Shown: positions 1,025-18,269 of the stretch, piece after piece | Numbering within the stretch: the first letter of the stretch is position 1 | Layout of the letters: each line of letters starts with the position of its first letter | From: Hellea sp. | GTDB taxonomy: Bacteria > Pseudomonadota > Alphaproteobacteria > Caulobacterales > Maricaulaceae | Reading direction: 5' to 3' | Assembly (NCBI GenBank): GCA_013002305.1 | Contig: JABDKG010000004.1 | Location: 1-48,504 of the forward strand | Length of the DNA: 48,504 nucleotides | Notes under the pieces: model-generated | What the model was told of the DNA's origin: nothing | Seen by the model: the letters and a program-made list of their open reading frames with translations, nothing else | Database searches by the model: none | Translations under genes and position numbers: made by a program

Positions 1025-1049
1025 ATTATGGCACCGTTAGTGCCATAAT
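1025..1049. promoter_or_regulatory. Operator site 1 of the TGRCA-N7-TGYCA regulon (DJ-1/GST operon)
   Basis: A perfect inverted repeat: ATTATGGCA, 7 nt (CCGTTAG), TGCCATAAT; the arms extend to 10 bp with a 5-nt spacer. It lies 20-44 nt upstream of the DJ-1 ATG at 1005. The right arm read toward the gene contains CATAAT, a 5/6 match to a -10 box, so binding would block the promoter. Closely matching palindromes occur at five more places in the first 18.3 kb, so this is most likely the site of the TetR protein encoded at 6519-7130. Confidence 0.8.
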
Positions 1050-1123
1050 GCGTAAATCAAGTCAATTAAAGGGACGGTTTTACATATCAGGTGCGTATGT
1101 AATTAGGAAAACAAAGGCCGTAA

Positions 1124-2722
1124 TTATCGGGCAGAACGGCTAACACGCATGGGATCATCCAGAGCAATGATCACAGGTTCCTGGTCAGCCGGACCTGGAG
1201 CTGTATAGCGCACTCCATCAAAGGGTTCCGGTCCGGGGCCCCCTGGGTTGAAGAAGGCACTGTACCCACCTTCAAGTGCGGGAATTTCGACGAAGGTCAC
1301 ATTACGTGCAGCCGCTTCGTCTCCGGTGAGAATGATATCGATATAGTTGTCGCGATCTTCGTTGTAACAGTCATCGTAATAAATGCCAGCATCCGGATCA
1401 AGGCGTTGGCCCAAATCTGCGAGGCCTAACACCTGCAAAGTACCGCCTTCGACCTGATAATCTTGGCCGACATTTTCCAGAAGAACGGTTTCGCCATTGG
1501 CCCCTCGCACATGGACACGGAAAAAACTCTCATAACTATCTGGGGTCAATGACCGCAATCCATCGGGGGAGAAGCCACCCGTTGTTAAAACCCGCAGCCG
1601 ATAATCTGCGTCGTCGCCATAGAGCGCAAACTCGTCATTCGGGAGGGCTCCCGAGTTCTGGACAAGAACGGGTATACCGCCTTCACCAACCGGGGCATTC
1701 CCGACAGCATTCAGCTTGGCCCCGACCAAAACTGGGCCCGCATCATAGGCAGATCTATCGGTGGTCCAATGCAGACCCACAGCGCCCACTTCTTGCGCGC
1801 CTGGACCGACGAGTGTGAGAGGTGTAGCATCTTCGACAATATCGAGACGCACCGGAAACACGGCATCAGCTTCATCTTGCAGACCACGATTGCCAAAATC
1901 ACCGAATGTAACAACGACATTGCGTTCACTAAGTTCCCAATTAGGGAGCAAGGTAATGGCATTGGGAAAGACAATCTCGCCTGTATTGAGGGTAAATTGA
2001 AAATCACTGACATCCGCCGTTTCCAAAGCCACAGGCCAGCTAAACACGATCGGTAAGCCATCATCAAAGGCAGAATGTCCTTTGATAACATTCGCAGTCC
2101 CGTCCTGGGGGGTCGCAGTCGTGAGTGTGACATTGTCCCCATTGGTACATTGGACTGAACCAACCCATGCGCCTCCGGCGTCACGGACGGCGCTCTCTGT
2201 GATCTCTGGAATGGCGATGATATTATCAAACCCCATACCTGCTGACAGGATCATCGGGTCTTCGGCCCAATAGTCGGCCGCCGTCAAAGCACCATTGAAT
2301 GTCGTACTGACAAGTTGATTTTCCGGGACGGGTGACACAGATACAGTGATACTGTCCGTTACGGTTTCCGTACCATCGCTGACTGAAAGCTCAAAGACGA
2401 TATCTTGTGGAGACGCCACATCAGGTGCAATGAAATTCGGAGCTTCGATCATGCTATCACTGAATTGCATATAGGGGCCGGAAGTTCGGGACCAGCTATA
2501 GGTCAACGTGTCATTATCCGCGTCACTCACGGTCGGTGAGAGCTGCACCATCTCGTCTTCCGCCACGCTTTGATCCGCCCCGGCATCGACCACCGGTGCG
2601 CTATTGGACGGAGGAGGTGGAGGAGGAGGTGAAACGGGTGTTGTACTGCCACTGTCAGAACACGCTGACAAGCTGAGAGTGAGCATAGCAGCAAACGAGA
2701 TTGGTAACAGATGAGAGTTCAT
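1124..2722 (-). CDS. PKD-like domain lipoprotein, ECF-dependent
   Basis: A 532-aa secreted lipoprotein. The start at 2722 is chosen because it gives a signal peptide ending in a lipobox (SLSAC) and has GGAG about 8 nt upstream. An in-frame ATG at 2866 would add 48 residues of KKSCS repeats before the signal peptide, which is implausible. After the lipobox come a Pro-rich linker and one PKD/Ig-like repeat (APVVDAGADQSV to about ITVSVSPVP). The long remainder, about 400 residues, I do not recognise; it includes an acidic, Asp-rich YYDDCYNEDRDN segment. It is divergent from the ECF sigma gene and preceded by an ECF-type promoter, so it is a likely sigma target at the cell surface. Function unknown. 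Confidence 0.85.
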   Translation of the reverse strand: MNSHLLPISFAAMLTLSLSACSDSGSTTPVSPPPPPPPSNSAPVVDAGADQSVAEDEMVQLSPTVSDADNDTLTYSWSRTSGPYMQFSDSMIEAPNFIAPDVASPQDIVFELSVSDGTETVTDSITVSVSPVPENQLVSTTFNGALTAADYWAEDPMILSAGMGFDNIIAIPEITESAVRDAGGAWVGSVQCTNGDNVTLTTATPQDGTANVIKGHSAFDDGLPIVFSWPVALETADVSDFQFTLNTGEIVFPNAITLLPNWELSERNVVVTFGDFGNRGLQDEADAVFPVRLDIVEDATPLTLVGPGAQEVGAVGLHWTTDRSAYDAGPVLVGAKLNAVGNAPVGEGGIPVLVQNSGALPNDEFALYGDDADYRLRVLTTGGFSPDGLRSLTPDSYESFFRVHVRGANGETVLLENVGQDYQVEGGTLQVLGLADLGQRLDPDAGIYYDDCYNEDRDNYIDIILTGDEAAARNVTFVEIPALEGGYSAFFNPGGPGPEPFDGVRYTAPGPADQEPVIIALDDPMRVSRSAR

Positions 2723-2798
2723 GGTGGGGCTCCGAATAGGTGTAGGATTGGTGTCTGAAAAAAGTGCGGCAAAGTTATTTAAACAAACCGGGAGATGT

Positions 2799-2843
2799 TT
2801 TTTGCTGCAACTCTTTTTGCTGCAACTCTTTTTGCTGCAACCC
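2799..2843. repeat. 15-bp tandem repeat, three copies
   Basis: Three consecutive units of TTTTTGCTGCAACTC (the third ends CCC) lie in the predicted 5' leader of the lipoprotein gene. The unit is a multiple of three, so translated in frame it reads as a repeated SCSKK. The leader from the predicted transcription start (about 2897) to the start codon (2722) is about 175 nt. The repeats could be a leader peptide, an RNA structure element or neutral slippage. Confidence 0.85.
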
Positions 2844-4648: not shown

Positions 4649-4666
4649 TTGACACTATTGATGTCA
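4649..4666. promoter_or_regulatory. Operator site 6 of the TGRCA-N7-TGYCA regulon (sulfatase gene)
   Basis: TTGACA, 7 nt (CTATTGA), TGTCA, with arms weakening to TTG/CAA outside. The core has the same spacing as the other five sites. TTGACA at 4649-4654 is also a consensus -35 box; 17 nt downstream lies TATTGA. The site sits 37 nt before the sulfatase ATG at 4703, inside the longer possible reading frame, which argues for the later start. Confidence 0.6.
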
Positions 4667-4702: not shown

Positions 4703-6457
4703 ATGAGTCTGAAAACCTATTTTGCATTTGTCGTAGCCCTTCTGTTTCCGTTTGTAACTGTGGCGCAAGAAAACGACCAACCAAACATTGTCATGATTCT
4801 GGTGGACGATTCCGCGCTGATGGATTTTGGCGTTTATGGCGGAGAAGCAGAGACGCCTAACATTGATGCGCTCGCAGCCCGAGGCGCTATGTTCACCCAA
4901 TACCGAACCTCGCCGCTCTGTTCTCCGACACGGGCTATGCTTCTGACGGGAGTCGATAATCATCGAACAGGCATCGCCACTATTCCTGAGGTCATCCCGC
5001 CGGAGCAAAAAGGCAAGCGCGGTTATTCCATGTCGCTGGAGCCGACCGTTTTGACCATTGGGGATCACCTGCGGGCCAATGGTTACCGGACTTTGATGAC
5101 GGGGAAGTGGCATATGGGCGAGACAGGCAATGACATGCCTCACAATCATGGGTTTGACCGGTCATTCGCTTTGGCAGCATCCGGGGCGGATAATTGGGAA
5201 GATAAATCCTATATGCCTTATTACGCCGAAGCGCCTTGGTATGAAGACGGCGTTTCAGCTGACCTTCCAGAAGATTTTTATTCCTCGAAATTCATTATCG
5301 ATAAGATGATGAATTATCTGGAAGAAACGGATCAGACAAAACCCTTTCTGGCCTATCTCCCGTTTCAGGCCATCCACATTCCCGTGCAGGCCCCGCCTGA
5401 ATTTACCGCTAAATATAAAGGGCGCTTTGACAGAGGCTGGAATGAGCTTCAGCGGGCCAGACATGAACGGGCGCAAGATTTGGGGTTCATTCGTAAAGGC
5501 GCGCCCCTAGCGCCTATGCCAGAGGATGCGCGGGCGTGGGACGATCTGGATGATGAAACCCGGGAGATTTACGCGGCCCGCATGGCAGTCAATGCGGGCA
5601 TGCTGACGGCTATGGATCATCATATCGGACGCTTTGTGAATTATCTCAAAGAGAACGGCGAATATGAAAATACGATTTTTGTCGTGACCTCCGATAATGG
5701 ACCAGAGCCCAATAGAGGCGACCATGACAGGCGTCTGGCCATATGGATGAAACTCAGCGGTTACAACATTGACCTCGATGGCATCGGAGAAAAAGGAAGC
5801 TGGGGCTTTATTGGTACGGAATGGGCCTTGGCCGCTTCTTCTCCGGGAACGTTGTATAAGTTTTACGCCACAGAAGGGGGCATTCGGGCGCCGCTGATTA
5901 TGGCGGGGCCGGGTATAGCACCCATGCGTGTCGATAGCCCGGCTATGGTAACAGATGTAACACCGACCCTTCTGGACATGACACGAGCCTCTACGGATTT
6001 TGTAGGGTTTCAATCCATGACCGGGCGGAGCCTTCTACCGGTTTTAACGGGGGAAGCCGAGACAGTTTACGGGCCGGATGATGTTCGGGCTATCGAAGTT
6101 TCCGGCAATACCGCGCTCTATAAAGGCGATTATAAAATCCTGCGCAGCGTTCCACCCATTGGTGATGGGAAATGGCAGCTTTACAACCTCTCAGATGACC
6201 CTGGTGAGACCCGCGATTTAAGCCAGGCAGAGCCTGAGCGGCTGCAAAAATTGTTGCAGGAATATTCTAGATATAAAGTCTCTATGGGTGTGCTCGATAT
6301 GCCGTTTGGTTATAACTCCAGCGCACAAATCGCGGCCAATACCGTCAAACGCGTGCGGGCGCGATATGGTAGGCTCTTTTTGCTGATAGGGTTGGTTTTT
6401 TCTCTGGGACTTTGGATATTGATCAGAAGATTAAGGCGAAGGCAGCGAGTAAAATAA
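4703..6457 (+). CDS. Sulfatase (arylsulfatase-type, formylglycine-dependent)
   Basis: A 584-aa type I sulfatase. The signal peptide is MSLKTYFAFVVALLFPFVTVAQ. Metal-site residues follow (VDDS, Asp35-Asp36) and the formylglycine motif C73-S-P-T-R77, whose Cys needs oxidation by a maturation enzyme not found in this window. The lysine/histidine motif TGKWHMGE and SDNGPEP are also present. A C-terminal hydrophobic helix plus an Arg-rich tail suggest attachment to the membrane with the catalytic domain periplasmic. The start at 4703 gives the signal peptide and has GGAGA upstream. Carrying regulon site 6, it probably removes sulfate from the substrate handled by the neighbouring TetR-controlled operons. 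Exact substrate unknown. Confidence 0.92.
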   Translation: MSLKTYFAFVVALLFPFVTVAQENDQPNIVMILVDDSALMDFGVYGGEAETPNIDALAARGAMFTQYRTSPLCSPTRAMLLTGVDNHRTGIATIPEVIPPEQKGKRGYSMSLEPTVLTIGDHLRANGYRTLMTGKWHMGETGNDMPHNHGFDRSFALAASGADNWEDKSYMPYYAEAPWYEDGVSADLPEDFYSSKFIIDKMMNYLEETDQTKPFLAYLPFQAIHIPVQAPPEFTAKYKGRFDRGWNELQRARHERAQDLGFIRKGAPLAPMPEDARAWDDLDDETREIYAARMAVNAGMLTAMDHHIGRFVNYLKENGEYENTIFVVTSDNGPEPNRGDHDRRLAIWMKLSGYNIDLDGIGEKGSWGFIGTEWALAASSPGTLYKFYATEGGIRAPLIMAGPGIAPMRVDSPAMVTDVTPTLLDMTRASTDFVGFQSMTGRSLLPVLTGEAETVYGPDDVRAIEVSGNTALYKGDYKILRSVPPIGDGKWQLYNLSDDPGETRDLSQAEPERLQKLLQEYSRYKVSMGVLDMPFGYNSSAQIAANTVKRVRARYGRLFLLIGLVFSLGLWILIRRLRRRQRVK

Positions 6458-6518: not shown

Positions 6519-7130
6519 CTAAATATCGTTGATTAGAGCTCCGACCATATGGGTCATGACAGCTTTTGTATCATCGAGAGAAAGACCACGGTCTTCCCGT
6601 AGACGCCGGACATTTGAATAACATAATGTGGCATCAAGAGATAAAAGCACTTTGTCATAGTCCGTCAGGTCTTTGGGTAAAACGGCTTTTATGGATGATA
6701 ATTCTCTGAGTCTGGCGCGTTTGTGTTCATCCATCATGATTTCGGATTTGTGGCGGCGAACTTGTACGGTCGCATGAGGGACCAGAACCCTGTCCCAGAG
6801 GTTTGCTGTACGTTCCACCAGTTCCAGAATCTGACTTTTCCAGTCAGATGACTGAAATGGCTTCATCAAATCCGGGGCAATGTCGGCTTCGGCGACCAGC
6901 ACCAGTTCCCGGTGAATGGCATCCATGTCTTCGAAATGGCGGAATACGGATCTCAGACCGACGCCGGCTTCTTCTGCAATCTCTGCGGCGCTGGGGTCCA
7001 TATCGCCTTCGAGCATGAGTGCCCACATGGCCTCCAAAATTTTCTGGCGAGACCTTTGAGAACGCTGACGGCGTCCGTCAGGCGCTTTGTCATTGTCGAC
7101 GACTTCTAGTTTTGGTTTTTTTGAACTCAT
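6519..7130 (-). CDS. TetR/AcrR family transcriptional regulator
   Basis: A 203-aa regulator with an N-terminal helix-turn-helix: RSRQKILEAMWALMLEG, then PSAAEIAEEAGVGLRSVFRHF. The C-terminal ligand domain is variable. It is the last gene of the four-gene operon starting at 9731, whose promoter carries operator site 2. It is the only DNA-binding protein in the first 18 kb besides the ECF sigma, which makes it the natural candidate to bind the six palindromes and repress its own operon. Ligand unknown; a hydrophobic substrate of the surrounding pathway is likely. Confidence 0.92.
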   Translation of the reverse strand: MSSKKPKLEVVDNDKAPDGRRQRSQRSRQKILEAMWALMLEGDMDPSAAEIAEEAGVGLRSVFRHFEDMDAIHRELVLVAEADIAPDLMKPFQSSDWKSQILELVERTANLWDRVLVPHATVQVRRHKSEIMMDEHKRARLRELSSIKAVLPKDLTDYDKVLLSLDATLCYSNVRRLREDRGLSLDDTKAVMTHMVGALINDI

Positions 7131-7139: not shown

Positions 7140-8216
7140 TTACCTGAAATTAGCCATCCCGTCTTCATAGATGATGGCGTCGCTGTCAACCGGCAGGCGG
7201 ACAATGGTCCCGTCCTGACTAACTGTAATCTTACCATCAAATTCGGCGTTCGTACCTTTCACGAACACAGGAATGAGCAGGTCATTCGGCAGCATAGGTA
7301 CGATATGATAAAGGACCAAATCCCGGGCATTGGCTTGCTTCGCCGTCTTGGCTGCGTCGACCGGGGAGGTGTGATAATCCTGAATATCGAAGAGAATTTT
7401 CTCCAGACCTTTCGCGCCGTTTTTCTTGGCGATCCCTTCCATGGTTTGAACCATTTCCATGTTGAGCGCTTCATGGAACATCACGTCCACATCTTTGGCG
7501 TAACCGGCAATGCGAATGTCATAGGCTGTGTCACCTGAAATATAGATGGACCGGTCTTTGTAATCGATGCGATAACCAAAGGCGGGATGGACAGGCTCAT
7601 GTGTGACCATTGTCGCCGTAATTTTCACGCCGTCATTGTCATAGACGACTTTGCTACCATTCACGAGTTTGATTTCATGAGCAATCGCACCAAAAGATGC
7701 TGGATTAGCAACAGCGACTCCGTGATGAGCTGTCCGGTATGTACTGTCGATCTGATAGGCCATATTGAAACCGTCGACGACCTGTGATGTTCCGACCGGG
7801 CCATAAACTTTGGTGGGTTCCGTCCGGCCACTATTGATCCAGGTCCCCAGTAACATTTGACCCAACCCGTCAATATGGTCTGAGTGCAAATGAGTCAGAA
7901 AGATACCTTCTACTTTATCTACAGTAAAACCCATCGGCGCAAGATTTTGGGAGCCTTTTGTGCCTGCATCAAAAATAAATGATTTTTCTCCCGCTTGAAC
8001 GGCAATGCAGGGGCCACTGCGTTTGGCGTCAAATAGAGGTGACCCTGCACCGCAGATATAAACATGAATGCCGTCCTCGAGTTGCGCAGTCGGTGCACCC
8101 AAACGTTCTGAGAGTACCCGTTCAAATCCGCGTTCTGCGATTTTAGGTAAGACCAGTTTGCGCGCTGCGAACAGAACAATCAGCAGGCCTAATCCAAATA
8201 GTAAGAGCTTTTTCAT
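7140..8216 (-). CDS. MBL-fold metallo-hydrolase, membrane-anchored
   Basis: A 358-aa metallo-beta-lactamase fold hydrolase of the RNase Z/arylsulfatase (AtsA)-like branch. An N-terminal membrane helix (about residues 3-17) anchors it. The metal motif is H109-L-H111-S-D113-H114-IDG. Further ligands are probably the His of HEPVHPAFGYR, the Asp of ISGDTAYD and the His of LVLYHIVP. This predicts a periplasm-facing di-zinc esterase, lactonase or sulfatase. It sits 2 nt after the small membrane protein gene and 9 nt before tetR in the same operon. Substrate unknown. Confidence 0.87.
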   Translation of the reverse strand: MKKLLLFGLGLLIVLFAARKLVLPKIAERGFERVLSERLGAPTAQLEDGIHVYICGAGSPLFDAKRSGPCIAVQAGEKSFIFDAGTKGSQNLAPMGFTVDKVEGIFLTHLHSDHIDGLGQMLLGTWINSGRTEPTKVYGPVGTSQVVDGFNMAYQIDSTYRTAHHGVAVANPASFGAIAHEIKLVNGSKVVYDNDGVKITATMVTHEPVHPAFGYRIDYKDRSIYISGDTAYDIRIAGYAKDVDVMFHEALNMEMVQTMEGIAKKNGAKGLEKILFDIQDYHTSPVDAAKTAKQANARDLVLYHIVPMLPNDLLIPVFVKGTNAEFDGKITVSQDGTIVRLPVDSDAIIYEDGMANFR

Positions 8217-8218: not shown

Positions 8219-8593
8219 CTAGGCCTCCTTTTTTGAAAGCTTGAGGGCAGTGAACAGCATGGCTGTGAGTACAAGTTCTATAATGATAGGCTGGCCTGCG
8301 CCGGGGCCAAACCCATGGGCCACAATGTCAAAGACACGCCCGATAATCGTCACGCCAAATAAAGCAATGGGTATCCAAAGCAAATGGCTTTTACCTTGAA
8401 AGAGGGCCAGTGCGCTGGCGCCAGCCCCAACCAGGAAAACGGCACCAAAGTCACCAACGATGGCGCCCCGTCCGGCTGCGTTATCGGCAGACACGCCAAG
8501 CGCCGTGCCCAGCAGTTCCGGCGATAAAAATGCTAAACTTCCCATCAGCAGCCCAAATAACATGGGAATGAATATCAAAATTTTTCTAAGCAT
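8219..8593 (-). CDS. Small integral membrane protein, DUF4345-like
   Basis: A 124-aa protein with four predicted membrane helices (residues about 4-24, 45-65, 70-90, 100-118) and few charges. The pattern of an early P-x-LLG loop and a central GRGAI-x-GDFGAVF segment recalls the DUF4345 family; the match is by eye. It lies between the DsbA-like and MBL genes with 10-nt and 2-nt gaps, so it is part of the same operon. It may be a membrane partner or transporter accessory. No catalytic motif is visible. Confidence 0.7.
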   Translation of the reverse strand: MLRKILIFIPMLFGLLMGSLAFLSPELLGTALGVSADNAAGRGAIVGDFGAVFLVGAGASALALFQGKSHLLWIPIALFGVTIIGRVFDIVAHGFGPGAGQPIIIELVLTAMLFTALKLSKKEA

Positions 8594-8603: not shown

Positions 8604-9731
8604 TTAGCTTAATTTTTGCAACGCGTTTTCGATGACCCATAACCGGTCTTGTCCCCATGTGACCGTATCGCCAACCCGAAAACTTGGTACGCCCCAGACT
8701 CCGAGCTCCATCATCTCAAGCCGGTTGGCCTCGGCAATGGCGCGCCAATCTTCATTGCCCAGAATATCTTTGGCTTCGGCCCAGTTTAAGCCGGCCCGAT
8801 CAACAATCTTCTGCAGGCCTTTATGGCTTCCGGCATCTGTACCTTCGGCCCACACGCAAGTTAAAAACGCATTGACATATTCATAGCCCCGGCCTTGCTC
8901 GCGCGCCCAGGGCAAAAGCGAATATCCCATTTCAACAGGCTTCCCGACCGGGTCCATAATTTTGCCGAAGGGAACGCCTAGTCGCCGCGCTTCTCGCGCT
9001 GTGTCCAAAGGGATATATCTCTTTTTTGCAGGTGGAACAGGAAGGCCGCGCATAACCATGGGCAGGACAAAACGAAGCTTTAAATCGGCGGCGTAAGCAT
9101 CGGCCATGGCTTTGACGCGGTCACGCACAATGGCGGTATAAGGCGAGCGAAACGATAAATACCAATGCAGCTCTGCGCTGGTATTACCGGAGCCCGTAGG
9201 CTTGGTCGGGGGTTCGTAGATCGGAGCTGCAACCCCGTCTTTTCGAGCGCCTAATTGGGTGAGGCGATCTTCGAGATAGTGCAGGCGGTCGAGCCCCCAA
9301 TACCATTCGCCGCCATAGTAAAGCGTGCCGCCCAGATAGTGACCCAGTTTTTCTCTTTTTGCATCAGAGACAGATGTATTAGTTGCCGGCGCGCGATCCT
9401 GGATTTCAAAATCAATTCCGGCCTTTTTGGCCAGGCGCATGGCATCCATTTTGGAATATTCGACAAGCTTTTCGCGTTCCGGCGCCGCCGCATCATCCGG
9501 AGGACTGACAAGGTGGGTAATCAGCTCGACCTTATAGGTCTCAACAAAACGCGGCAGGACCTTTTCGAGGAGCTGCGAATAGGGATCCGATGGATCATGA
9601 AAGAACTCAACTTTGTGGGCTTCACCCTTTGTCACGCGGCTACGTTCAAATTTCGCGCGTTGTTTATTGAGCCGGTCTTCTCCGAGGAGTTTCTGCGCAG
9701 CGCGCGGGACGATGAAGGATTTTAGAGACAT
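8604..9731 (-). CDS. DsbA-family / 2-hydroxychromene-2-carboxylate isomerase-like protein, two-domain
   Basis: A 375-aa protein with two thioredoxin-fold, DsbA/kappa-GST-like domains in tandem. Domain 1 (about 35-150) starts VEFFHDPSDPYSQ. Domain 2 (about 185-370) starts LHWYLSFRSPYTAIV and ends WGVPSFRVGDTVTWGQDRLW, the layout of HCCA isomerases (SPY motif near the N-terminus, cis-Pro region GVPSF). Neither domain has a CxxC, so it is not a disulfide oxidoreductase; a glutathione-dependent isomerase role is more likely. It is the first gene of the minus-strand operon, divergent from another GST-like gene with operator site 2 between them. Confidence 0.85.
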   Translation of the reverse strand: MSLKSFIVPRAAQKLLGEDRLNKQRAKFERSRVTKGEAHKVEFFHDPSDPYSQLLEKVLPRFVETYKVELITHLVSPPDDAAAPEREKLVEYSKMDAMRLAKKAGIDFEIQDRAPATNTSVSDAKREKLGHYLGGTLYYGGEWYWGLDRLHYLEDRLTQLGARKDGVAAPIYEPPTKPTGSGNTSAELHWYLSFRSPYTAIVRDRVKAMADAYAADLKLRFVLPMVMRGLPVPPAKKRYIPLDTAREARRLGVPFGKIMDPVGKPVEMGYSLLPWAREQGRGYEYVNAFLTCVWAEGTDAGSHKGLQKIVDRAGLNWAEAKDILGNEDWRAIAEANRLEMMELGVWGVPSFRVGDTVTWGQDRLWVIENALQKLS

Positions 9732-9785: not shown

Positions 9786-9810
9786 ATTATGACATTGTTA
9801 GTGTCATAAT
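9786..9810. promoter_or_regulatory. Operator site 2, shared by the two divergent operons
   Basis: ATTATGACA, 7 nt (TTGTTAG), TGTCATAAT: a perfect palindrome with 9-bp arms, centred in the 119-bp gap between the DsbA-like gene (minus) and the GST-like gene (plus). Both strands read CATAAT in the downstream arm, a near -10 box, so one bound repressor could silence both directions. The minus-strand operon ends with the tetR gene, giving a feedback loop. Confidence 0.82.
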
Positions 9811-9850: not shown

Positions 9851-10996
9851 ATGACGTCGACAGACTACATACTCTACGGCATGCAAGCGTCGCTCTTTAC
9901 CGGCAAGGCGCGGGCCTATATGCGCCGAAACCGTATTCCGGTGACGGAGCGCGGAGCCGGTCATTCGGAGTTCATGACCCGTATTTATTCGCATATGCAG
10001 CGCTTTATCATGCCGGTGATTGAATCCCCTGAGGGGGATATCATTCAGGACGGAACGGATATACTGGAATATCTTGAAAGGCGGGGATTAGGACACGAAC
10101 CGCTCTTCCCCGAAGACCCGGTCACCAAGGCGGTGTCGTTATTATTTCAGCTCTTTGGCAATGAGGGCCTATTGCGCCCGGCCATGCATTACCGCTGGAA
10201 TTTTGACGACGATAATCTGGCGTTCCTCAAGGTCAGTTTCAGGGATGTCATGCCTGTTGATATGGGCGCCAAGGCCAATGATGCCGGGTTTGATCATGCT
10301 TCGGGCCGTATGCGCAAAGCGGCCAAAGCTTTTGGGGTTTTTGATGAATCCATCAAGCTTATCGAAGAGAGCTATGCGGAGTTTCTAGCATTGTTTAGCG
10401 CGCATTTAGAGCGCAGTTTTTTCTTACTAGGGGACCGTCCGACCATTGGGGATTATGGCCTGTTTAACCCGCTATATGCCCACTTGGCCCGGGATCCAAA
10501 GCCGACGTTTCTGATGAAAACGACTGCGCCTTTGGTTTGGAACTGGGTTGAGCGGATGAACCGACCTGAGGTCACCGAAGAACATACGTTGGTTGAGCCT
10601 AAAGAAGGTCAGTATGCAGTCGATGAATTGCCGGAAACTTTAACGGCTCTGATGCGCTATGTGGGCGAGGAATATGCGGCGGAATTTTCCGCTCAAGTTG
10701 ATTTTACGGATAACTGGCTGGCCGATCAGGGCGAAAACCCGGAAAAAGTCAAAGCGCCTTTGGGACGGGGCATCGGCTTTGCGGCGTTTGAATGGCGCGG
10801 CATTGAAATGTCTTCTGTCGTTATGCCGTATCGTTTCTATCTGGCGCAGCGCCTATGGGACCATTTCGACAGTTGTTCGGAAAACACACAAGCCGACATT
10901 CGCAGCCTGTTTGCCAAGACGGGTCTGGAACCCTTCCTCGACAAACGACCCAGCCGCCGGGTCCTGCGCAAAGACTATCATGAGGTCTGGGCTTAA
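9851..10996 (+). CDS. Glutathione S-transferase family protein
   Basis: A 381-aa protein, longer than a usual GST (about 200-230 aa). The N-terminal thioredoxin-fold domain (YILYGMQASLFTGKARAYMR; VMPVIESPEGDIIQDGTDILEYLE) is followed by a helical GST C-terminal domain with the signature FLLGDRPTIGDYGLFNPLYAHL. About 130 extra residues at the end I do not recognise. The Ser of ASLF is a plausible glutathione-activating residue. AGGA precedes the ATG. It is the first gene of a five-gene operon followed 3 nt later by the dehalogenase-like hydrolase, and is paralogous to the partial GST at 1-154. Confidence 0.87.
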   Translation: MTSTDYILYGMQASLFTGKARAYMRRNRIPVTERGAGHSEFMTRIYSHMQRFIMPVIESPEGDIIQDGTDILEYLERRGLGHEPLFPEDPVTKAVSLLFQLFGNEGLLRPAMHYRWNFDDDNLAFLKVSFRDVMPVDMGAKANDAGFDHASGRMRKAAKAFGVFDESIKLIEESYAEFLALFSAHLERSFFLLGDRPTIGDYGLFNPLYAHLARDPKPTFLMKTTAPLVWNWVERMNRPEVTEEHTLVEPKEGQYAVDELPETLTALMRYVGEEYAAEFSAQVDFTDNWLADQGENPEKVKAPLGRGIGFAAFEWRGIEMSSVVMPYRFYLAQRLWDHFDSCSENTQADIRSLFAKTGLEPFLDKRPSRRVLRKDYHEVWA

Positions 10997-10999: not shown

Positions 11000-11941
11000 A
11001 TGGAATTTAACCGAAGCCCCGATAGCTGTTTTGACAATCTGGCGGATTATCCCTTTGCGCCCAATTATGTAGAGGTGGATGACCAGGAAGGCGGCAAGCT
11101 TCGCATGCACTATGTGGATGAGGGGCCTAAAGATGGCACGTTGGTGGTTATGCTGCACGGCAATCCAACTTGGTCTTATATGTGGCGTAAGCTCATTCCT
11201 GTTTTGGCGGAGAATGGCTACCGCGCCATCGCCATTGACCATATTGGGGCCGGGCGTTCCGACAAACCTACCAAGATGATCGACTATACGATTGCTCGTC
11301 ATGAGGCCTGGGTGAAACAGGCATTATTTGAAGAATTAGGCGTCAAAGACGCGCATTTCATTTTACATGATTGGGGCGGAATAACCGGGTTGCGGGCCAT
11401 CGCTGATAATCAAGACAAAGTGTCATCCATCATTATGTCCAATACAGGTTTGGCCGGCAGAAATCCCGATAAACCCATAAAAAAAATGGCCAGAAAGGGC
11501 GCAGGGTTCTTGCGGGCCTTTCAGCTTTGGATTCGCGTGAACAAGGGATGGAAATTTTGGAAGACGATTTCAAAAATTACGCTCTCGGATATGCCTGAAG
11601 CTGATATTGAGAGTTACGCCGCGCCTTATCCGCACAGGTCCTATCTCACAGGCATTCGGCAATTTACGCAAATGCTGCCGACCCGAAATGATAATCCCAT
11701 GTTGACGGAAAACTGGCAGGCTTTGCAGAAGCTTAAAAATTTCGAAAAGCCGTTTTTGAACCTTTTTTCCGATAAGGACAAAATCGCGCCAAAAGGCTAT
11801 AAGTCCGTCCGGCCCGCTATTCCCGGGACACGCGATTATGAGCCGATTATCCTCAAAGGTGGATCACATTTTCTGTTGGAAGATATCCCGCAAGACTATG
11901 CGCGCGAAGTGCTCAAATTTTATGAAAGTTTGAAGGCATGA
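11000..11941 (+). CDS. Haloalkane dehalogenase-like alpha/beta hydrolase (HLD-I type)
   Basis: A 313-aa alpha/beta hydrolase. The nucleophile elbow is HDWGG with Asp124, not Ser, followed by Trp125. The oxyanion region is HGNPTWSYMW (residues 53-62), the acid is probably Asp260 (or Asp258) in LFSDKDK, and the base is His290 in GGSHFLLED. Xanthobacter DhlA uses Asp124, Trp125, Asp260 and His289, and the N-terminal YPFAPNY and HYVDEG segments also resemble it, so this is close to subfamily HLD-I. A Trp near 177 could be the second halide ligand. Epoxide hydrolase activity is an alternative. It overlaps the next gene by 4 nt (ATGA). Confidence 0.87.
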   Translation: MEFNRSPDSCFDNLADYPFAPNYVEVDDQEGGKLRMHYVDEGPKDGTLVVMLHGNPTWSYMWRKLIPVLAENGYRAIAIDHIGAGRSDKPTKMIDYTIARHEAWVKQALFEELGVKDAHFILHDWGGITGLRAIADNQDKVSSIIMSNTGLAGRNPDKPIKKMARKGAGFLRAFQLWIRVNKGWKFWKTISKITLSDMPEADIESYAAPYPHRSYLTGIRQFTQMLPTRNDNPMLTENWQALQKLKNFEKPFLNLFSDKDKIAPKGYKSVRPAIPGTRDYEPIILKGGSHFLLEDIPQDYAREVLKFYESLKA

Positions 11942-12933
11942 CCTCTCAATATCGCATGACTCGTTTTCGAACTGCCGAAACCGGCAATGATATTTTTGAA
12001 CTGACCCATGATGATCCGCCGCCTGTGCAGGACGGGGAGGTTCTTGTCCGGTTTGACTGGATTTCCGTTGACCCGGCTATGAGCGGCTGGACGACCAATA
12101 AACGTAGCTACATGCCGCCCGTCAAACCCGGTCAGATCATGCGCGCTTTCGGAATAGGCGAAGTTACGGAGTCCAAATTTGATGGATTGCAAGTGGGTGA
12201 CTGGGTCACCGGATTCACGGGCATGCAGACCGAAGGCGTGCTCAGAGGCAAACATTTTCGAAAAGTCGATGTGAGCCTAGCGCCGCCCAATCATTTTCTC
12301 TCAGGTCTCGGCATGACCGGCTATACGGGCTATTTCGGCATGATGGATATCGGCCAGCCCAAACCCGGAAAAACGGTTGTTGTATCGGCTGCGGCCGGGG
12401 CCGTCGGAACGATTGCGTCGCAAATGGCGCGTAATAGTGGAGCAAGGGTCATCGGCATTGCCGGTGGCCCGACCAAATGTGCATTCTTAACGGATGAGCT
12501 CAAGCTTGACGGGGCGATCGATTACAAAAACGAGAGCATCAAAGATGGGCTGGATAGAGAATGCCCCGACGGCATTGATGTTTACTTCGACAATGTTGGC
12601 GGCGAAATTCTCGACGCTGTGTTGGCGCGCATAAACTATAAAGGCACTATAGTCGTCTGCGGGGCCATTTCGCAATACGCCGATTGGCATACACAACAAG
12701 GTCCAAAGAACTACATGCAACTTATCGCACAAAGCGCCAAGATGCAGGGCTTTACCATGAAGGATTATATGCACCGGATTCCCGAGGCATTTACGGCGCT
12801 TCTAACTGCGCAGAAGAGGGGTGACCTTATTTTTCGCGAGCATATTGTTGAAGGTATCGAAAGCTTCCCGGAGGCTTTTGAAATGCTGTTCTCGGGCGGC
12901 AATCACGGCAAACTATTGATAAAGGTAAGATGA
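11938..12933 (+). CDS. Zinc-independent NADP-dependent oxidoreductase (MDR, leukotriene B4 dehydrogenase-like)
   Basis: A 331-aa medium-chain dehydrogenase/reductase. The N-terminal GroES-like domain lacks the zinc-binding Cys cluster. The Rossmann domain carries AAAGAVGTIASQMA and then GARVIGIAGGPTKCAFL, the NADP-binding region typical of the prostaglandin/leukotriene reductase branch. GLTGYTGYFG-like text (LGMTGYTGYFGMMDIG) and the FDNVGG motif also fit. It should reduce an alpha,beta-unsaturated ketone or aldehyde. It is translationally coupled to the hydrolase upstream and the membrane protein downstream by ATGA overlaps. Confidence 0.92.
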   Translation: MTSQYRMTRFRTAETGNDIFELTHDDPPPVQDGEVLVRFDWISVDPAMSGWTTNKRSYMPPVKPGQIMRAFGIGEVTESKFDGLQVGDWVTGFTGMQTEGVLRGKHFRKVDVSLAPPNHFLSGLGMTGYTGYFGMMDIGQPKPGKTVVVSAAAGAVGTIASQMARNSGARVIGIAGGPTKCAFLTDELKLDGAIDYKNESIKDGLDRECPDGIDVYFDNVGGEILDAVLARINYKGTIVVCGAISQYADWHTQQGPKNYMQLIAQSAKMQGFTMKDYMHRIPEAFTALLTAQKRGDLIFREHIVEGIESFPEAFEMLFSGGNHGKLLIKVR

Positions 12934-13568
12934 TGAATTGGTATATTTGGATAGTTGCAGCGCTGGCTTATTTGGTATTTGCCGCGTGGTATTTTAACTG
13001 GAAAGGTCCGTTAAAACCCGATGAGATCAAACTCTATGCAGAGCGGTTTGCAGCGAACTCAAGCCAGTCTCCAACAGATCCGGAAATTTTATTGAAATTC
13101 ATGGAAGAAGATGACGGCAAAGAATTTGTCATGCTTAACTTGGTCAGATTCCATCAAGGCGAAGTTGAGCATCCGGAAACTGGCGAAAGCTCGACAGGGC
13201 CGGAACTCATTCAAGGATATTTTGGTCCATTTAGTAAAGCGCTATTTAAACGAGGCGGGCACCCCGCAGTTCTGGCGCGAAAAAAAGGGGGATATATTGA
13301 TAGTTGGAATTCTACTGCAGATGAGGGATTCCATATCGTCAGTATGATGCGTTATCGTAGTCGCCGCGATCTGCTGACATTGGCCACGGACCTGCGGTTC
13401 AAAGATAGCCATAAATTCAAACTCGCGGCTATCGATGGAACAACGTCTTTCCCAACCCATATTCAAATGAGCACTTATCTGAGACCCAAAATTTGGGTAC
13501 CGTTATTGCTCTTACTTTTAGCGTCTCTGGCGCAGAACGCTTTATTCTTTTTTGAATTGAGGAAATAG
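12930..13568 (+). CDS. Membrane protein with DUF1330/dimeric barrel-like central domain
   Basis: A 212-aa protein with membrane helices at both ends (residues about 4-23 and 188-207). The central part (about 58-175: EFVMLNLVRF, LFKRGGHPAVLARKKGGYID, IVSMMRYRSRRDLLTLATD) reads like a ferredoxin-like alpha/beta barrel of the DUF1330 type, in which small oxygenases and isomerases occur. The domain assignment is by eye. It overlaps the MDR gene by 4 nt and is followed 2 nt later by the DUF2855 gene, so it belongs to the same transcript. Confidence 0.7.
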   Translation: MMNWYIWIVAALAYLVFAAWYFNWKGPLKPDEIKLYAERFAANSSQSPTDPEILLKFMEEDDGKEFVMLNLVRFHQGEVEHPETGESSTGPELIQGYFGPFSKALFKRGGHPAVLARKKGGYIDSWNSTADEGFHIVSMMRYRSRRDLLTLATDLRFKDSHKFKLAAIDGTTSFPTHIQMSTYLRPKIWVPLLLLLLASLAQNALFFFELRK

Positions 13569-13570
13569 AC

Positions 13571-14662
13571 ATGCAGGAACTTTTGATCGACCGCGACAAT
13601 TACCGGAACACAAAAATCGTTGAATCCGAGTCCCGACCTTTAGCCGACGGCGAAGTTCGTGTCGCCATAGATAAATATGGCCTGACAGCTAATAATGTTA
13701 GCTATGCGGTTTCCGGCGATATGATTGGGTATTGGAAATATTATCCTGTGAGCTCCGATGACGGCGTCAATTGGGGCAAGGTCCCTGTTTGGGGTATGGC
13801 CGATATCGTTGAGAGTAAGTGCGACGGTGTCGAGGCAGGCGAACGGATATACGGATTTTTACCCATGGCGAGCGAAGTCATTATGAGGCCGGGCAAACTC
13901 AAAGCGGCATCTTTCGTGGATGTGGCCGAACATCGTCAGCCTTTGCCGGAGCTTTACAACGGCTATAATCGAACGGCGGGCGAGCCGGCGCTTTACAAGA
14001 CTTTGGAGAATGAGCGCTGCCTTTTATTCCCGCTCTTTGTCACGGGTTACGTTCTGGCAGATTTTCTGGAAGACAATAATTATTGGGGCGCGGAGCAGGT
14101 CTTAATCGGGTCAGTCTCATCCAAGACAGGGTTCGGCATGGCGGCTTTCGTCAATTCCGAAACAGATTTTGGCGGTAGGATTATTGGCCTCACATCCCCG
14201 GGGAACAAGGCCTTTGTAGAAAGCCTGGGTGACTGCCATCAGGTCGTCACTTACGGCAATGAAGCCGAAATCGATCCATCCAAAAAGTCTGTTTATGTGG
14301 ATATGTCTGGCAATGGCGAACTGCGCAATAGGCTCCATAATCATCTCGGTGAGAATATGGTGCGCTCTATCGGCGTCGGCGCCACTCATTGGGAAGAGCG
14401 GCGAGGGGGCGGCGACATGCCAGGCGCCAAGCCGGAGTTTTTCTTTGCGCCCGCTCAAATCGGTAAACGTAATAAAGATTGGGGCCCTGGCGTTTTGTTC
14501 CAGAAAGCCTACGCAGCCGGCGCGCAGCTGGCCGCCCGTACGTCCGATAATCTAGATGTGGAGTTTTTAAACGGCATGGAAGCCGCCCGCGATATCTGGA
14601 TTGAAACCCTGGACAACAAAGTCTCGCCAAAGCGCGGCATTATGGTGTCTCTAAAGGGGTAG
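13571..14662 (+). CDS. DUF2855 family protein
   Basis: A 363-aa protein of the DUF2855 family, which is distantly MDR-like. Visible are an N-terminal GroES-like start (GEVRVAIDKYGLTANNVSYAVSGDMIGYW), the MASEVIMRPGKL segment, LLFPLFVTGYVLADFL, and a Rossmann-type stretch (QVLIGSVSSKTGFGMAAF; GGRIIGLTSPGN). GAGGAAA precedes the ATG. The family has no established reaction known to me; members often accompany lipid or xenobiotic pathways. It is the last gene of the plus-strand operon. Confidence 0.87.
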   Translation: MQELLIDRDNYRNTKIVESESRPLADGEVRVAIDKYGLTANNVSYAVSGDMIGYWKYYPVSSDDGVNWGKVPVWGMADIVESKCDGVEAGERIYGFLPMASEVIMRPGKLKAASFVDVAEHRQPLPELYNGYNRTAGEPALYKTLENERCLLFPLFVTGYVLADFLEDNNYWGAEQVLIGSVSSKTGFGMAAFVNSETDFGGRIIGLTSPGNKAFVESLGDCHQVVTYGNEAEIDPSKKSVYVDMSGNGELRNRLHNHLGENMVRSIGVGATHWEERRGGGDMPGAKPEFFFAPAQIGKRNKDWGPGVLFQKAYAAGAQLAARTSDNLDVEFLNGMEAARDIWIETLDNKVSPKRGIMVSLKG

Positions 14663-14699: not shown

Positions 14700-14726
14700 T
14701 GTATTGACATTATAAGTGTCAATACA
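14700..14726. promoter_or_regulatory. Operator site 3 of the TGRCA-N7-TGYCA regulon (desaturase gene)
   Basis: TGTATTGACA, 7 nt (TTATAAG), TGTCAATACA: a perfect palindrome with 10-bp arms. TTGACA at 14704-14709 is a consensus -35 box, so a bound repressor would cover the promoter. It lies 37 nt before the likely GTG start of the desaturase-like gene. Confidence 0.82.
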
Positions 14727-14763
14727 TAGTGTCCATCAACGCCTTTAGTTGATGGAGCAGACT

Positions 14764-15645
14764 GTGAACCCGAACTCTCCTTTTGCCGAAAATACCGATG
14801 ATTTAGAGCTTTTCAAAAAGCTCATGCAAAAGCCAAAACTTGCCTGGCCGACGGTCACCCTTTTAGGGGCGGCATTCGTTATTTTCGGCGTGTCAACTTA
14901 TGCCCATATCACCGAAAGATTGCCGCTCGGTTGGGCGATGTTTTTCAACGCAGTCGCATCCTATATGGCTTTTCCCGCGGCTCACGAGGCGACCCATAGC
15001 GCCGTTTGTTCAAACCGAAAGGTGAATGATTTTGCCGGGCGCATTTCAATGTTGCTACTCGAGCCCGGGCCTTTTTTTCCAGTATTCCGATTTATTCACA
15101 TGCGGCATCACAGGTTCACCAATGACCCTGTCAAAGACCCTGATGTCTATTCCGGGACGGGTCCAAAATGGTTGCTACCGTTTAAATGGCTGACATTGGA
15201 CTTTATCTATTTCAAAAATTATCTGGCACCTGATGTTTTCAAGAAAAGACCCAAGAAGGAACGGTATGAATTCTATTTTGCGGTTATATTTGTCTTCAGC
15301 GTTATAGCGGTGATGATTGCGGCTGGTTGGTTGCAATATTACCTATTGCTGTTCTTCATTCCGACACGCATCTCTAAGTTTTTCATCATTATCGGTTTTG
15401 ATTTTCTGCCCCATTATCCGCATGAGGCTTATGCCAAAGAAGAGCCCTATCGATGCACGTCGAACCGTGTTGGTATGGAGTGGTTGCTGACGCCTTTATT
15501 CTTGTATCAGAATTATCATCTCGTGCACCATCTCTACCCGGCCGTGCCGTTTTATCGCTACATCAAGATCTGGAATTCCCGGAAGCAATTTCATGAAGCG
15601 CAGATTCCGGCGATCGTCGATACATTCTCGCTAAAGCCGAGATAG
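14764..15645 (+). CDS. Membrane fatty acid desaturase/hydroxylase family protein
   Basis: A 293-aa integral membrane di-iron enzyme. The His boxes are HEATH (in AAHEATHSAVC), HMRHHRF, and HLVHH (in NYHLVHHLYP), the pattern of fatty acid desaturases, beta-carotene hydroxylases and related oxygenases. Several hydrophobic segments flank them. The start at GTG 14764 is chosen because GGAG lies 6 nt upstream; in-frame TTG 14749 and ATG 14752 lack a ribosome site. It has its own copy of the regulon operator. It could hydroxylate or desaturate the pathway substrate, or adapt membrane lipids during exposure. Confidence 0.87.
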   Translation: MNPNSPFAENTDDLELFKKLMQKPKLAWPTVTLLGAAFVIFGVSTYAHITERLPLGWAMFFNAVASYMAFPAAHEATHSAVCSNRKVNDFAGRISMLLLEPGPFFPVFRFIHMRHHRFTNDPVKDPDVYSGTGPKWLLPFKWLTLDFIYFKNYLAPDVFKKRPKKERYEFYFAVIFVFSVIAVMIAAGWLQYYLLLFFIPTRISKFFIIIGFDFLPHYPHEAYAKEEPYRCTSNRVGMEWLLTPLFLYQNYHLVHHLYPAVPFYRYIKIWNSRKQFHEAQIPAIVDTFSLKPR

Positions 15646-15715: not shown

Positions 15716-18178
15716 TTAGTCCCAGTTAAGCCGTAGCGTCGCGCCATATGTACGTGGCGGTTCAAAAAATCCGGCAAATGATCCGGCCTGTAGCGGCGCG
15801 TCAAAGACGATGTTCTGCACGGTCTCATTGGTGATATTTTTTGCCCAAACCTCAAAACTCCAGAATGAGTCTTCAGGCACTAATGCGAGACTCGTATCAA
15901 ATGTCCAGAACGAGGGCTGCTGCGCGACTGGGTCGAGGTCCTGAGCCGTATTATATTCCGAGCGATAACGATAGGCGCCGCGGGCCAACAGATTATGTTT
16001 ATTGGTGACGGGCAATTCATAGGTCATGTTACCTGTCAAGCTGACATCGGATATGAAGTTTGGTTTTTGGCCCGTCAGGTTTTGAACGCTTTGCCCGGCA
16101 CTAATTTGTGCTTGGGTGGGACCTGCAGCTGTAAAAGTTTTATATTTGATATCCTGAAATGAAGCGGAGCCGGTGTAATTCCAGCGATCGCTGAACTGTA
16201 CGCTATAGTCGAGCTCTGCGCCGTGCCCCTCCACGGAGCCCGCGTTCCGGATTGTGAAGACCGTACCGTTAAACGAATTGGCCTGGAAGTTCTCAAGTTC
16301 TTGTAAGAAGAAGGCCATGTCCAGCTTGACCTTGCGGTCCAGCCACCGGGTCTTGAGACCAAGCTCAAACGTTTCGGCTTGTTCCGGCTGAAAGGTCACC
16401 GCATCGCGAAGGGACTGGGTCGGCGTTAGACTTGGATCAATTGCGACTAACGCGTCATAGTTAGACACACGGTCCGGGACGCCAGCAATTGTGTTGGGGC
16501 CAGTCCTCGTTAGATTAAAGCCGCCGGATTTATATCCCTGAGCATAGCGGAAATAGGCATTGTAATCCGGTGAAAACTCATAGGAGAGACTGCCTGTGAC
16601 AGAAAAATCATCATCGCTGTAATCAACGTCAAACGGAACAACGGCTGGCGCAATCTGTAATTGCCGGATGCCTATAAATAATCCGCCAAAAATAGTCCGA
16701 AGATCGACTTGGGAGAATGGATCTGTTGCATTGATATTATAGTCGGCCTGTTTGCTTTCATCTGTATAACGCGCGCCGATGGACAGATCGAGTTGATCCG
16801 TTGCGTGCCAGGTTGCATTGCCAAACACGGCGAAACTTTCGGCATTATAATCAAAACTATCCGCCGATGCCACACCATCCGCAGCAAATGTTCCGCGCGG
16901 CACCATTTGATTGTTTTCAACCAGATTAAGAACGGGCTGTCCGAAAACCACCGGTAGCAAGTCGTCGAAATAGGCCCGCGTATCGGTTCCGAATTCCAGA
17001 ATATTGAGCGCATCAATATGCTGATCGGAGTAAAAACCGCCGATCAGCCAGTCAACATCTTGAACGCCGTCTGACGACAGGCGGAGTTCCAATGATTTTT
17101 CGTTCAGGTCCTGCCTATTACTGGCTGTAAACATGTCAAGATTTGTAAAATCACCCTCGGTCAATGGTATATATTCAAAGGTGCGATAAGCGCCGATCGC
17201 CGTCGCCGTCATACCGCCGAGATCCCATTCGGCTTCTGCCGATACGCCTTTGTCTTTAATTGGATCGGATAGTTTTTGCGTGTCTGTGTTCAGGCTGACT
17301 TGCCGATTATCAATGTCGACGATTGTTCCGCTATAGGGGCCAATCATGCCGGCCGTTCCGGACAATATCTGCCCGCCATTGGCCTGTACTGCGGCTGCGG
17401 CAGGGCCGTTAAGGATCGGCGTCGCCGCGCAGCAGACTTCGTCCATTTCGCTCACATCACCGATTACCCGCAGAGAGAAATCATCAGACGGTTCCCAAAG
17501 GATTTGCCCGCGCAGGGTCCAGCGGTCACGATCATTGAGCGAGCCGCCATCATTCAGGTTTTCAACATAACCGTCGCGGTTCTGATAGGAACCCGCCAGG
17601 CTAAAGGCGAGCTCGTCGCTGAGCCCGTCGGAATAAGCCGCCCGAATTTGTTTGAGATTGTAATTGCCAACCGAAACATCGGCTTTGACGCGGCGGTCAA
17701 AACTTGGCTTGGACGTTCGCACATTGACAACGCCGGCCGATGTGTTCTTTCCAAATATAGTACCCTGCGGCCCGCGCAGGACTTCGACCTGTTCAATATC
17801 GATGTAATCGCCAAGAGCAGAACCCGGACGTCCGCGATGGACGCCGTCAATGATGACACCGACAGATTGTTCAAGACCGGTGTTTTGGCCGGCTGTGCCT
17901 ATGCCGCGAATGGCAAAAACTGATGTCGAGGCGCCGGTAGACTGATTAAAGGTCAGGGAAGGCGCCGAATTTTGAAGATCCGAGATGTCACGGATTTGGG
18001 CTTTGTCCAGCTCTTCTCCGGAGACAGCTGTAACCGGGACGGGAACATCAAAAATCGTCTCCGGCCTTTTGGTCGCCGTAACGATAACTTCGTCCTCAGC
18101 GGTCTGTGCAACAGACGGTAGAGAGAGCGATGCAGAAAGAGCTGTTGTCACAGCTAATATGGTTAAGCGTGATGCCAT
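15716..18178 (-). CDS. TonB-dependent outer membrane receptor
   Basis: An 820-aa TonB-dependent receptor. Signal peptide to about residue 24 (LSLPSVAQ), TonB box DEVIVTA (about 29-35), plug domain with SVFAIRGIGTAG and VEVLRGPQGTIFGKNTSAGVVNV, then a 22-strand barrel ending in an aromatic-rich strand (YGATLRLNWD). It resembles the large receptor class that sphingomonads and marine alphaproteobacteria use for aromatic, steroid or lipid-like compounds rather than a classic siderophore receptor; no siderophore genes are nearby. GGGGAA precedes the ATG. Two copies of the regulon palindrome sit upstream, so it is probably the uptake step of the TetR-controlled pathway. Confidence 0.93.
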   Translation of the reverse strand: MASRLTILAVTTALSASLSLPSVAQTAEDEVIVTATKRPETIFDVPVPVTAVSGEELDKAQIRDISDLQNSAPSLTFNQSTGASTSVFAIRGIGTAGQNTGLEQSVGVIIDGVHRGRPGSALGDYIDIEQVEVLRGPQGTIFGKNTSAGVVNVRTSKPSFDRRVKADVSVGNYNLKQIRAAYSDGLSDELAFSLAGSYQNRDGYVENLNDGGSLNDRDRWTLRGQILWEPSDDFSLRVIGDVSEMDEVCCAATPILNGPAAAAVQANGGQILSGTAGMIGPYSGTIVDIDNRQVSLNTDTQKLSDPIKDKGVSAEAEWDLGGMTATAIGAYRTFEYIPLTEGDFTNLDMFTASNRQDLNEKSLELRLSSDGVQDVDWLIGGFYSDQHIDALNILEFGTDTRAYFDDLLPVVFGQPVLNLVENNQMVPRGTFAADGVASADSFDYNAESFAVFGNATWHATDQLDLSIGARYTDESKQADYNINATDPFSQVDLRTIFGGLFIGIRQLQIAPAVVPFDVDYSDDDFSVTGSLSYEFSPDYNAYFRYAQGYKSGGFNLTRTGPNTIAGVPDRVSNYDALVAIDPSLTPTQSLRDAVTFQPEQAETFELGLKTRWLDRKVKLDMAFFLQELENFQANSFNGTVFTIRNAGSVEGHGAELDYSVQFSDRWNYTGSASFQDIKYKTFTAAGPTQAQISAGQSVQNLTGQKPNFISDVSLTGNMTYELPVTNKHNLLARGAYRYRSEYNTAQDLDPVAQQPSFWTFDTSLALVPEDSFWSFEVWAKNITNETVQNIVFDAPLQAGSFAGFFEPPRTYGATLRLNWD

Positions 18179-18212
18179 TGATATTTCCCCTGGTTACATT
18201 TGTTTTCCGCTA

Positions 18213-18237
18213 TATATGGCACATTAAGTGCCAATAC
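18213..18237. promoter_or_regulatory. Operator site 4 (proximal, TonB receptor promoter)
   Basis: Core TGGCA, 7 nt (CATTAAG), TGCCA, with weaker flanking symmetry. Read toward the gene it includes TTGGCA, a near -35 box. It lies 35 nt upstream of the receptor ATG at 18178. Confidence 0.65.
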
Positions 18238-18243
18238 AATAAT

Positions 18244-18269
18244 AATTTGGCATTTTAGGTGTCATTAAT
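18244..18269. promoter_or_regulatory. Operator site 5 (distal, TonB receptor promoter)
   Basis: Core TGGCA, 7 nt (TTTTAGG), TGTCA. One arm differs from perfect symmetry, so it should be weaker alone. Its centre (18256) is 31 bp from that of site 4 (18225), close to three helical turns, which would place two repressor dimers on the same face of the DNA. Confidence 0.55.

Follow-up and report, generated by a model that had tools for sequence, protein, structure and literature searches.

KstR, PsrA and DesT are TetR-family repressors that act locally on catabolic clusters, and circuits in which one TetR regulator acts through several operators nearby are already known. The combination of operator and gene set described here is, to our knowledge, not among systems of that type. 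The DNA analyzed was a 48,504-nucleotide stretch from Hellea sp. (GenBank assembly GCA_013002305.1, contig JABDKG010000004.1, positions 1 to 48,504), hereafter the window, and the system in question consists of a TetR-family gene (6519..7130, minus strand; PF00440 above cut-off) together with the palindromic operators and the operons that surround it. We hold it likely that these form a local regulon under one TetR repressor, the encoded proteins of which would take up and degrade a lipophilic sulfate ester. Recognition of TGRCAY-N5-RTGYCA (the strict motif) by the 6519-7130 protein is a well-supported prediction, and the placement of such sites in the putative promoter regions of six window operons or genes, as well as of the GST2-sulfatase B operon on contig C20, is supported by comparison.

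Six palindromes with the core TGRCA-N7-TGYCA had been reported in a first-pass annotation and all were confirmed, with core starts at 1029, 4650, 9790, 14705, 18217 and 18248. Along the window (operators are given without strand; related genomes are numbered G and related loci L), O1 (1025..1049, core 1029-1045) precedes the operon of DJ-1 and a glutathione S-transferase (GST) and is conserved in Hellea-group loci. O2 (4650..4666), a weak palindrome, precedes sulfatase A; O3 (9786..9810) is common to two divergent operons and occupies the same position in L023, L026 and L027; O4 (14700..14726) precedes the desaturase gene and is also found ahead of its orthologues in G021 and G036, not in G014. 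O5 (18213..18237, core 18217-18233) and O6 (18244..18269, core 18248-18264), 31 bp apart, are the near and the far site of the TonB receptor gene. Perfect arms of 9-10 bp were verified at 1025-1049, 9786-9810 and 14700-14726, with mirror symmetry outside a 5-7 bp centre, the remaining three palindromes (4650, 18217 and 18248) being weaker in mirror symmetry. The site orthologous to O2 in G038 is a full palindrome, TGACACTATTAGTGTCA.

Distances from core to start codon, taken as differences of coordinates, were 24 bases for DJ-1, 45 for GST1, 59 for DsbA, 28 (TTG) or 31 (ATG) for the desaturase, and 39 (near site) and 70 (far site) for the TonB receptor. For sulfatase A the distance is 37 if translation starts at ATG 4703; the longest open reading frame (ORF) begins at TTG 4622, 5′ of O2. 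A spacing of 20-60 nt between site and start, as described earlier, thus holds for all (the sulfatase with its ATG 4703 start) except the far TonB site.

The loose core occurred seven times in the window (0.14 expected), a count reached in none of 100 shuffles. The seventh match, at 46925, lies within ORF 46475-46984 (minus strand) and violates the sharper form. Scanned over the 2.94-Mb genome, the loose form was unspecific by itself (30 places, 13 for the reversed control) and was therefore sharpened to the strict motif, which occurred in nine places, read from the list as the six window sites, C20:5599 and two sites within ORFs, on C49 and C66 of the same genome (G000). These two and the ORF-internal sites C2:37546 and C1:605211 of Hellea balneolensis were taken as chance matches. 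Requiring A or T on both sides (AT-flanked motif) left six matches against none in the control, namely five window sites and C20:5599; O2 fails the requirement on its right side. A fully symmetric form, TGRCACTNNNAGTGYCA, was rejected as too strict, having missed all sites of its own genome; it was present in 9 of 137 genomes, six of them with a TetR match.

The regulon probably runs past the left edge of the window. The window is the whole of contig C67, one of 102, and the reverse complement of its left end overlaps the start of C20 by exactly 127 bases. The GST gene that the first-pass annotation had placed behind DJ-1 is real; it begins at 156 (minus strand), is truncated by the contig end and continues in frame on C20, which is very probably the next contig. 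A seventh operator, C20:5599, probably lies about 5.5 kb beyond the edge, ahead of the GST2-sulfatase B operon, so that the count of six is correct for the window and probably one short for a cluster going on to C20. Gene order over C20 and the window matches that of H. balneolensis, save for an extra GST and a small ORF.

The TonB receptor gene was compared between four loci, from the window, G014, G021 and G037, and each has a double operator with 30-31 bp spacing. The near operator of each takes up the 17 bases that separate a TTGTAT box from a TATAAT-like box, in the window TTGTAT from TATATA. The arrangement fits classical steric repression, with two dimers predicted to sit on one DNA face. 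A scan for the sigma-70 consensus gave no excess over shuffles (17 vs 19.9), and the putative promoter boxes are therefore placed by conservation only. The DsbA-TM124-MBL-TetR and GST1-HLD-MDR-TM212-DUF2855 operons (gene products below) diverge from the single operator O3; since the TetR operon lies behind O3, it is probably self-repressed.

A search for the TetR protein across 137 family genomes gave matches at E 1e-10 or better in 16, its own genome included. Orthologues with 54-71% identity were found in five other Hellea-group genomes (G014, G021, G032, G036 and G037, the last with two copies), and G023 carried a fragment at a contig end. G014 is H. balneolensis DSM 19091, a named strain with the same cluster; the other carriers of the same genus are metagenome-assembled genomes (MAGs) of Hellea sp. 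The strict motif in these loci precedes GST1/DsbA, DJ-1/sulfatase A, GST2-sulfatase B and the TonB receptor, and in G021 and G036 the desaturase; in seven other Hellea-group loci (L023, L024, L026, L027, L028, L082 and L089) a strict site is followed after 18-24 bases by a DJ-1 orthologue. Orthologues of the haloalkane-dehalogenase subfamily protein (HLD), at 86-88% identity, occurred in four other genomes of the 137, all four carrying TetR. The family also has more distant TetR loci, of which nine were inspected, with identity falling to about 30%; within 3.5 kb the strict motif was present in six, and in two of those its distance to the TetR match was roughly 450 bases or greater.

Scanning named genomes with the TetR alignment gave 131 relatives, and the 80 best supplied the loci for comparison (1.33 Mb). 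The strict motif occurred at 100 sites, in 63 of the 80 loci. The same half-sites at 15 other spacings (0-4 and 6-15 bases) gave 0-3 matches, making the 5-bp spacing unique, and 719 permuted half-sites gave a mean of 1.4 and a maximum of 34, the top three being near the true half-site in sequence. In a set of 90 sequences with 120 strict sites, 107 sites had the start of a system gene no more than 300 bases downstream and none fell inside such a gene, gene starts being extrapolated from tblastn; the remaining 13 were near no known system-gene start. O2 is missing from the upstream sites, since the query used for the sulfatase starts at the TTG 5′ of it. Both the expected presence of the motif in TetR-bearing relatives and control by one TetR, as first proposed, are supported by this comparison, that is, by co-occurrence of motif and TetR, fixed spacing and orthologous placement.

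As labelled, the 80 loci come mostly from Hyphomonadaceae, sphingomonads, Caulobacterales, Comamonadaceae and other beta- and gammaproteobacteria, and a few from Mesorhizobium, Myxococcales or Acidobacteria. TetR and operator are also found together in Caulobacter and in marine gammaproteobacteria such as HTCC2207. Genes near TetR included sulfatase (59 of 80 loci), metallo-beta-lactamase-fold (MBL) hydrolase (49), DsbA (42), formylglycine-generating enzyme (FGE; 35), HLD (30) and GST (30). Searching a plasmid collection for a TetR relative yielded none, and relatives of the TetR protein in the PDB align mostly over the DNA-binding part.

Two side observations concern the distribution. Clusters in L111, L113, L114 and L125, labelled Acidobacteria or Sulfopaludibacter, have a layout like that of Hyphomonas MAGs, for which misbinning or transfer are offered as alternatives. 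G037 has two TetR genes, on C27 and C34, each 70-71% identical to that of the window and each with GST1/DsbA operons, through either duplication or a mixed bin (contamination 8%).

Several observations weigh against a single TetR-controlled regulon of this content. Loci were selected by a recognition-helix pattern, not by the operator; conservation of the helix is therefore no evidence, while the operator test stays fair. Many of the 80 loci are from related strains and thus not independent, and 17 lack the strict motif. A one-mismatch copy, counted without a control, was present in 10 of the 17, and such copies are AT-flanked on both sides, by eye, in L121, L129, L135, L137, L143 and L149. 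The strict site is missing from nine loci that contain at least two core genes, and in six loci that do contain it no core gene lies within the stretch examined. The desaturase gene of H. balneolensis has no operator of its own; in G032 and on C27 of G037, 327-676 bases separate the GST1/DsbA site from the starts of its genes; outside Hellea, desaturase and MDR genes are rare near TetR (1/80 and 2/80, respectively). The receptors at double-operator promoters in relatives are 30-40% identical to that of the window. TetR-bearing and TetR-lacking genomes overlap in how many AT-flanked motifs they contain, and 90 of the 137 have at least one. Genus g18 (G118, G119, G125, G126, G128 and G129), with weak partial TetR matches at most, has 4-6 scattered matches (control 0 or 1), and it is the clustering of the motif, not its count, that distinguishes TetR-bearing genomes. 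Finally, sulfate as the theme is drawn from family names.

The genes themselves were characterized as follows. Sulfatase A (4703..6457, plus strand, reading ATG 4703 as the start) is an exported protein of family PF00884 (E 6.6e-58) with the formylglycine motif CSPTR; its best solved relative is the arylsulfatase of P. aeruginosa, 1hdh (E 4e-110 over about 508 residues). Sulfatase B, on C20, has the motif CAPSR and resembles carrageenan-type and other S1 sulfatases. By pattern, C/S-x-P-x-R at residues 40-130 was present in 57 of 83 cluster members and not found at those residues in 26. The genome holds five PF00884 sulfatases, two of them in the regulon, and two genes of the FGE family (PF03781), both outside the window, so that a maturase is available. 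In the DsbA operon, the DsbA/2-hydroxychromene-2-carboxylate-isomerase-like protein (8604..9731, minus strand) matched PF01323 on residues 190-372 and 2imd (E 4.6e-9), that is, in its C-terminal half, the N-terminal half resembling, by eye, a second copy. It is followed by the small membrane protein TM124 (8219..8593, minus strand; conserved position, 64-74% identity), the anchored MBL hydrolase (7140..8216, minus strand) and TetR, the last gene. The MBL protein carries the HxHxDH-type motif HLHSDH and is nearest PNGM-1, then arylsulfatase 8gyg and RNase Z.

The divergent operon starts with a long GST, GST1 (9851..10996, plus strand), which matched nothing in the PDB by sequence at E 0.01. Its structural model (pLDDT 85) has as top fold match StyI (9qd3; TM by target 0.72), LigF being listed too. 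HLD (11000..11941, plus strand) scored 300.5 bits against NF002043 (cut-off 265) and matched 4mj3 at E 4.7e-70. Judged by the catalytic positions of DhlA, it keeps all five, D124-W125, W177, D260 and H290; within the family D, W, D and H are present in 27/27 members and F-x-x-W, by eye, in 23/27. The next gene encodes a double-bond reductase of the medium-chain dehydrogenase/reductase (MDR) superfamily (11938..12933, plus strand), of CurA/PTGR1 type and under the cut-offs of those models, followed by the membrane-anchored TM212 (12930..13568, plus strand; conserved position, no match in a Pfam scan) and a DUF2855 protein (13571..14662, plus strand; PF11017, E 3e-95). The latter may be an MDR relative; its model resembles a PTGR1-type MDR, and the low confidence (pLDDT 51) makes the likeness tentative. 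The FA_desaturase-superfamily enzyme (14749..15645, plus strand) has the CrtR hydroxylase model as its nearest in NCBIfam, below cut-off, and the TonB-dependent outer-membrane receptor (15716..18178, minus strand) matched PF00593 and PF07715. At the left end lie the membrane-anchored DJ-1/PfpI-family protein (157..1005, minus strand; PF01965, E 2.5e-11) and, as second gene of its operon, the 5′ part of a third long GST (1..156, minus strand), the translation of which is a GST N-terminus.

In relatives, the G037 operon has between its HLD and MDR genes one for a 592-residue ligase, grouped by clustering with an AMP-binding enzyme, and HTCC2207 has a pyrroloquinoline quinone (PQQ)-type dehydrogenase, a short-chain dehydrogenase/reductase (SDR), a coenzyme A (CoA) ligase and an enoyl-CoA hydratase near TetR. 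An epoxide-making monooxygenase, as in the styrene/isoprene route, was not among the 19 window proteins scanned, the search being confined to the window. Taken together, the gene content points to desulfation, oxidation and CoA activation of a lipophilic alcohol sulfate, with steps that would use glutathione or remove halogen by hydrolysis. That a hydrophobic compound is imported and converted, as the first-pass annotation suggested, is plausible, and it is reasonable to narrow the compound to a sulfate ester with a lipophilic part.

In the proposed mechanism, ligand-free TetR dimers would prevent transcription by occupying the -35 and -10 boxes or the space between them, and two dimers three helical turns apart at the TonB promoter would give tighter control of import. 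The substrate or an intermediate would free the repressor from its operators. The TonB receptor would let the compound in, and the exported sulfatases, perhaps also the MBL enzyme, would take off sulfate. The GSTs, the isomerase-like protein, the dehalogenase-family hydrolase, the desaturase-type enzyme and the MDR reductases would process the remainder, which would enter beta-oxidation as a CoA ester.

How far halogen belongs in this scheme can be weighed from the HLD protein. We put at somewhat below even odds a variant without halogen, in which the dehalogenase-family enzyme cleaves esters or epoxides and the compound degraded is simply a steroid, terpenoid or alkyl sulfate: the cap Trp is absent in 4 of 27 family members, alpha/beta hydrolases drift in substrate and diatom sterol sulfates are common, while the Hellea enzyme itself retains the nucleophile with its neighbouring Trp, the cap Trp, the acid and the His, and passes the NCBIfam cut-off for haloalkane dehalogenases. 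At the other end, a regulon for a chlorosulfolipid or like halogenated algal sulfate-lipid, the first in bacteria, is a hypothesis from gene content that we hold to be improbable. Danicalipin-type lipids carry two sulfates; after TonB import, two exported sulfatases would strip them, the dehalogenase and the long GSTs would strip the halogens and the resulting acid would pass through a CoA ligase to beta-oxidation. Chlorosulfolipids, uniting sulfate, chlorine and an alkyl chain, are reported from coastal seawater during blooms (PMC13413282), and a search of open papers on chlorosulfolipids and bacterial degradation found no work on their breakdown, judged by title or abstract.

The same TetR regulon might instead serve defence, TetR sensing electrophiles or halogenated compounds and the GSTs, DJ-1, MDR reductases and dehalogenase detoxifying them. 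The StyI-like fold of GST1, the PTGR1/CurA type of the MDR and the presence of a DJ-1 family member agree with this, and Zobellia offers a precedent, the TetR gene ZGAL_235 beside haloalkane-dehalogenase-like ZGAL_234. Carrageenan induces ZGAL_234, for which a helpful role during cell-wall breakdown has been suggested (PMC5613140); this precedent slightly raises the likelihood of defence. Exported sulfatases with a formylglycine-generating enzyme nearby (59/80 and 35/80 loci), the double-operator TonB receptor gene and the CoA ligases and enoyl-CoA hydratases of relatives suit catabolism better, however, and no efflux pump was among the 19 window proteins scanned; we regard defence as unlikely. 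Sulfur scavenging, with sulfate stripped from organic matter for sulfur supply, would explain the kinship of sulfatase A to the P. aeruginosa arylsulfatase, an enzyme made under sulfate starvation. Control by a TetR, the larger share of regulon genes that would work on carbon skeletons and the sulfate richness of seawater make this very improbable. That the palindromes are read by some other factor, with TetR a bystander, has hardly any likelihood. An ECF (extracytoplasmic function) sigma factor gene (3008-3619) does lie inside the operator-bearing stretch, but motif and TetR stay paired across lineages, while the ECF protein of the window was matched in only 3/80 loci; sites occur shortly upstream of tetR itself in several lineages and ECF promoters are not known to be palindromic. 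The 3008-4430 stretch (ECF sigma factor, likely anti-sigma and small membrane protein), situated between two operators, is probably an independent unit; neither its genes nor a PKD lipoprotein gene elsewhere in the operator-bearing stretch has a strict site directly ahead. Near the TonB gene and outside the regulon lies a gene for a YfdX-family protein (18738-19685).

A catabolic regulon for a lipophilic sulfate ester would matter beyond Hellea. Since TetR and operator occur in Hyphomonadaceae, sphingomonads, Caulobacter, Comamonadaceae and marine gammaproteobacteria, they would mark a widespread uncharacterised pathway. The common operator links genes of obscure role (DUF2855, the long GSTs and the DsbA-like protein), and identifying the ligand of one repressor would reveal what the entire system acts on. 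If that were a halogenated sulfate lipid, the regulon would be a biological sink for compounds reported in bloom-time coastal seawater (PMC13413282). A search of open full-text literature, with most subscription journals outside its reach, found no description of the gene set, nothing on DUF2855 or on H. balneolensis with sulfatase, and no text joining HTCC2207, sulfatase and GST or joining dehalogenase, sulfatase, GST, TetR and operon.

Compared with individual known enzymes, sulfatase A differs from the P. aeruginosa arylsulfatase (1hdh) in sitting in a TetR regulon with lipid-type genes. The window HLD is like haloalkane dehalogenases (4mj3; 1b6g) in its near full-length match and retained catalytic residues, as judged here from sequence, and unlike 4mj3 has HGN for HGE. 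GST1 is more than 100 residues longer than the solved chain of StyI and 16% identical to it; the StyI and IsoI styrene and isoprene pathways are described as using GST pairs. The DsbA-like protein is longer than 2-hydroxychromene-2-carboxylate isomerase (2imd), and no naphthalene pathway genes were noticed alongside it. In the marine alga-degrader Zobellia, the TetR gene ZGAL_235 likewise adjoins the haloalkane-dehalogenase-like gene ZGAL_234, near a carrageenase; that dehalogenase is likened to DbjA, and a shared operator or a sulfatase/GST regulon is not seen in the accessible part of the report (PMC5613140). As a circuit, the system described here is closest to KstR, PsrA and DesT, with which it shares one TetR, near-palindromic operators overlapping promoters, self-control and the joining of several operons of a single pathway.

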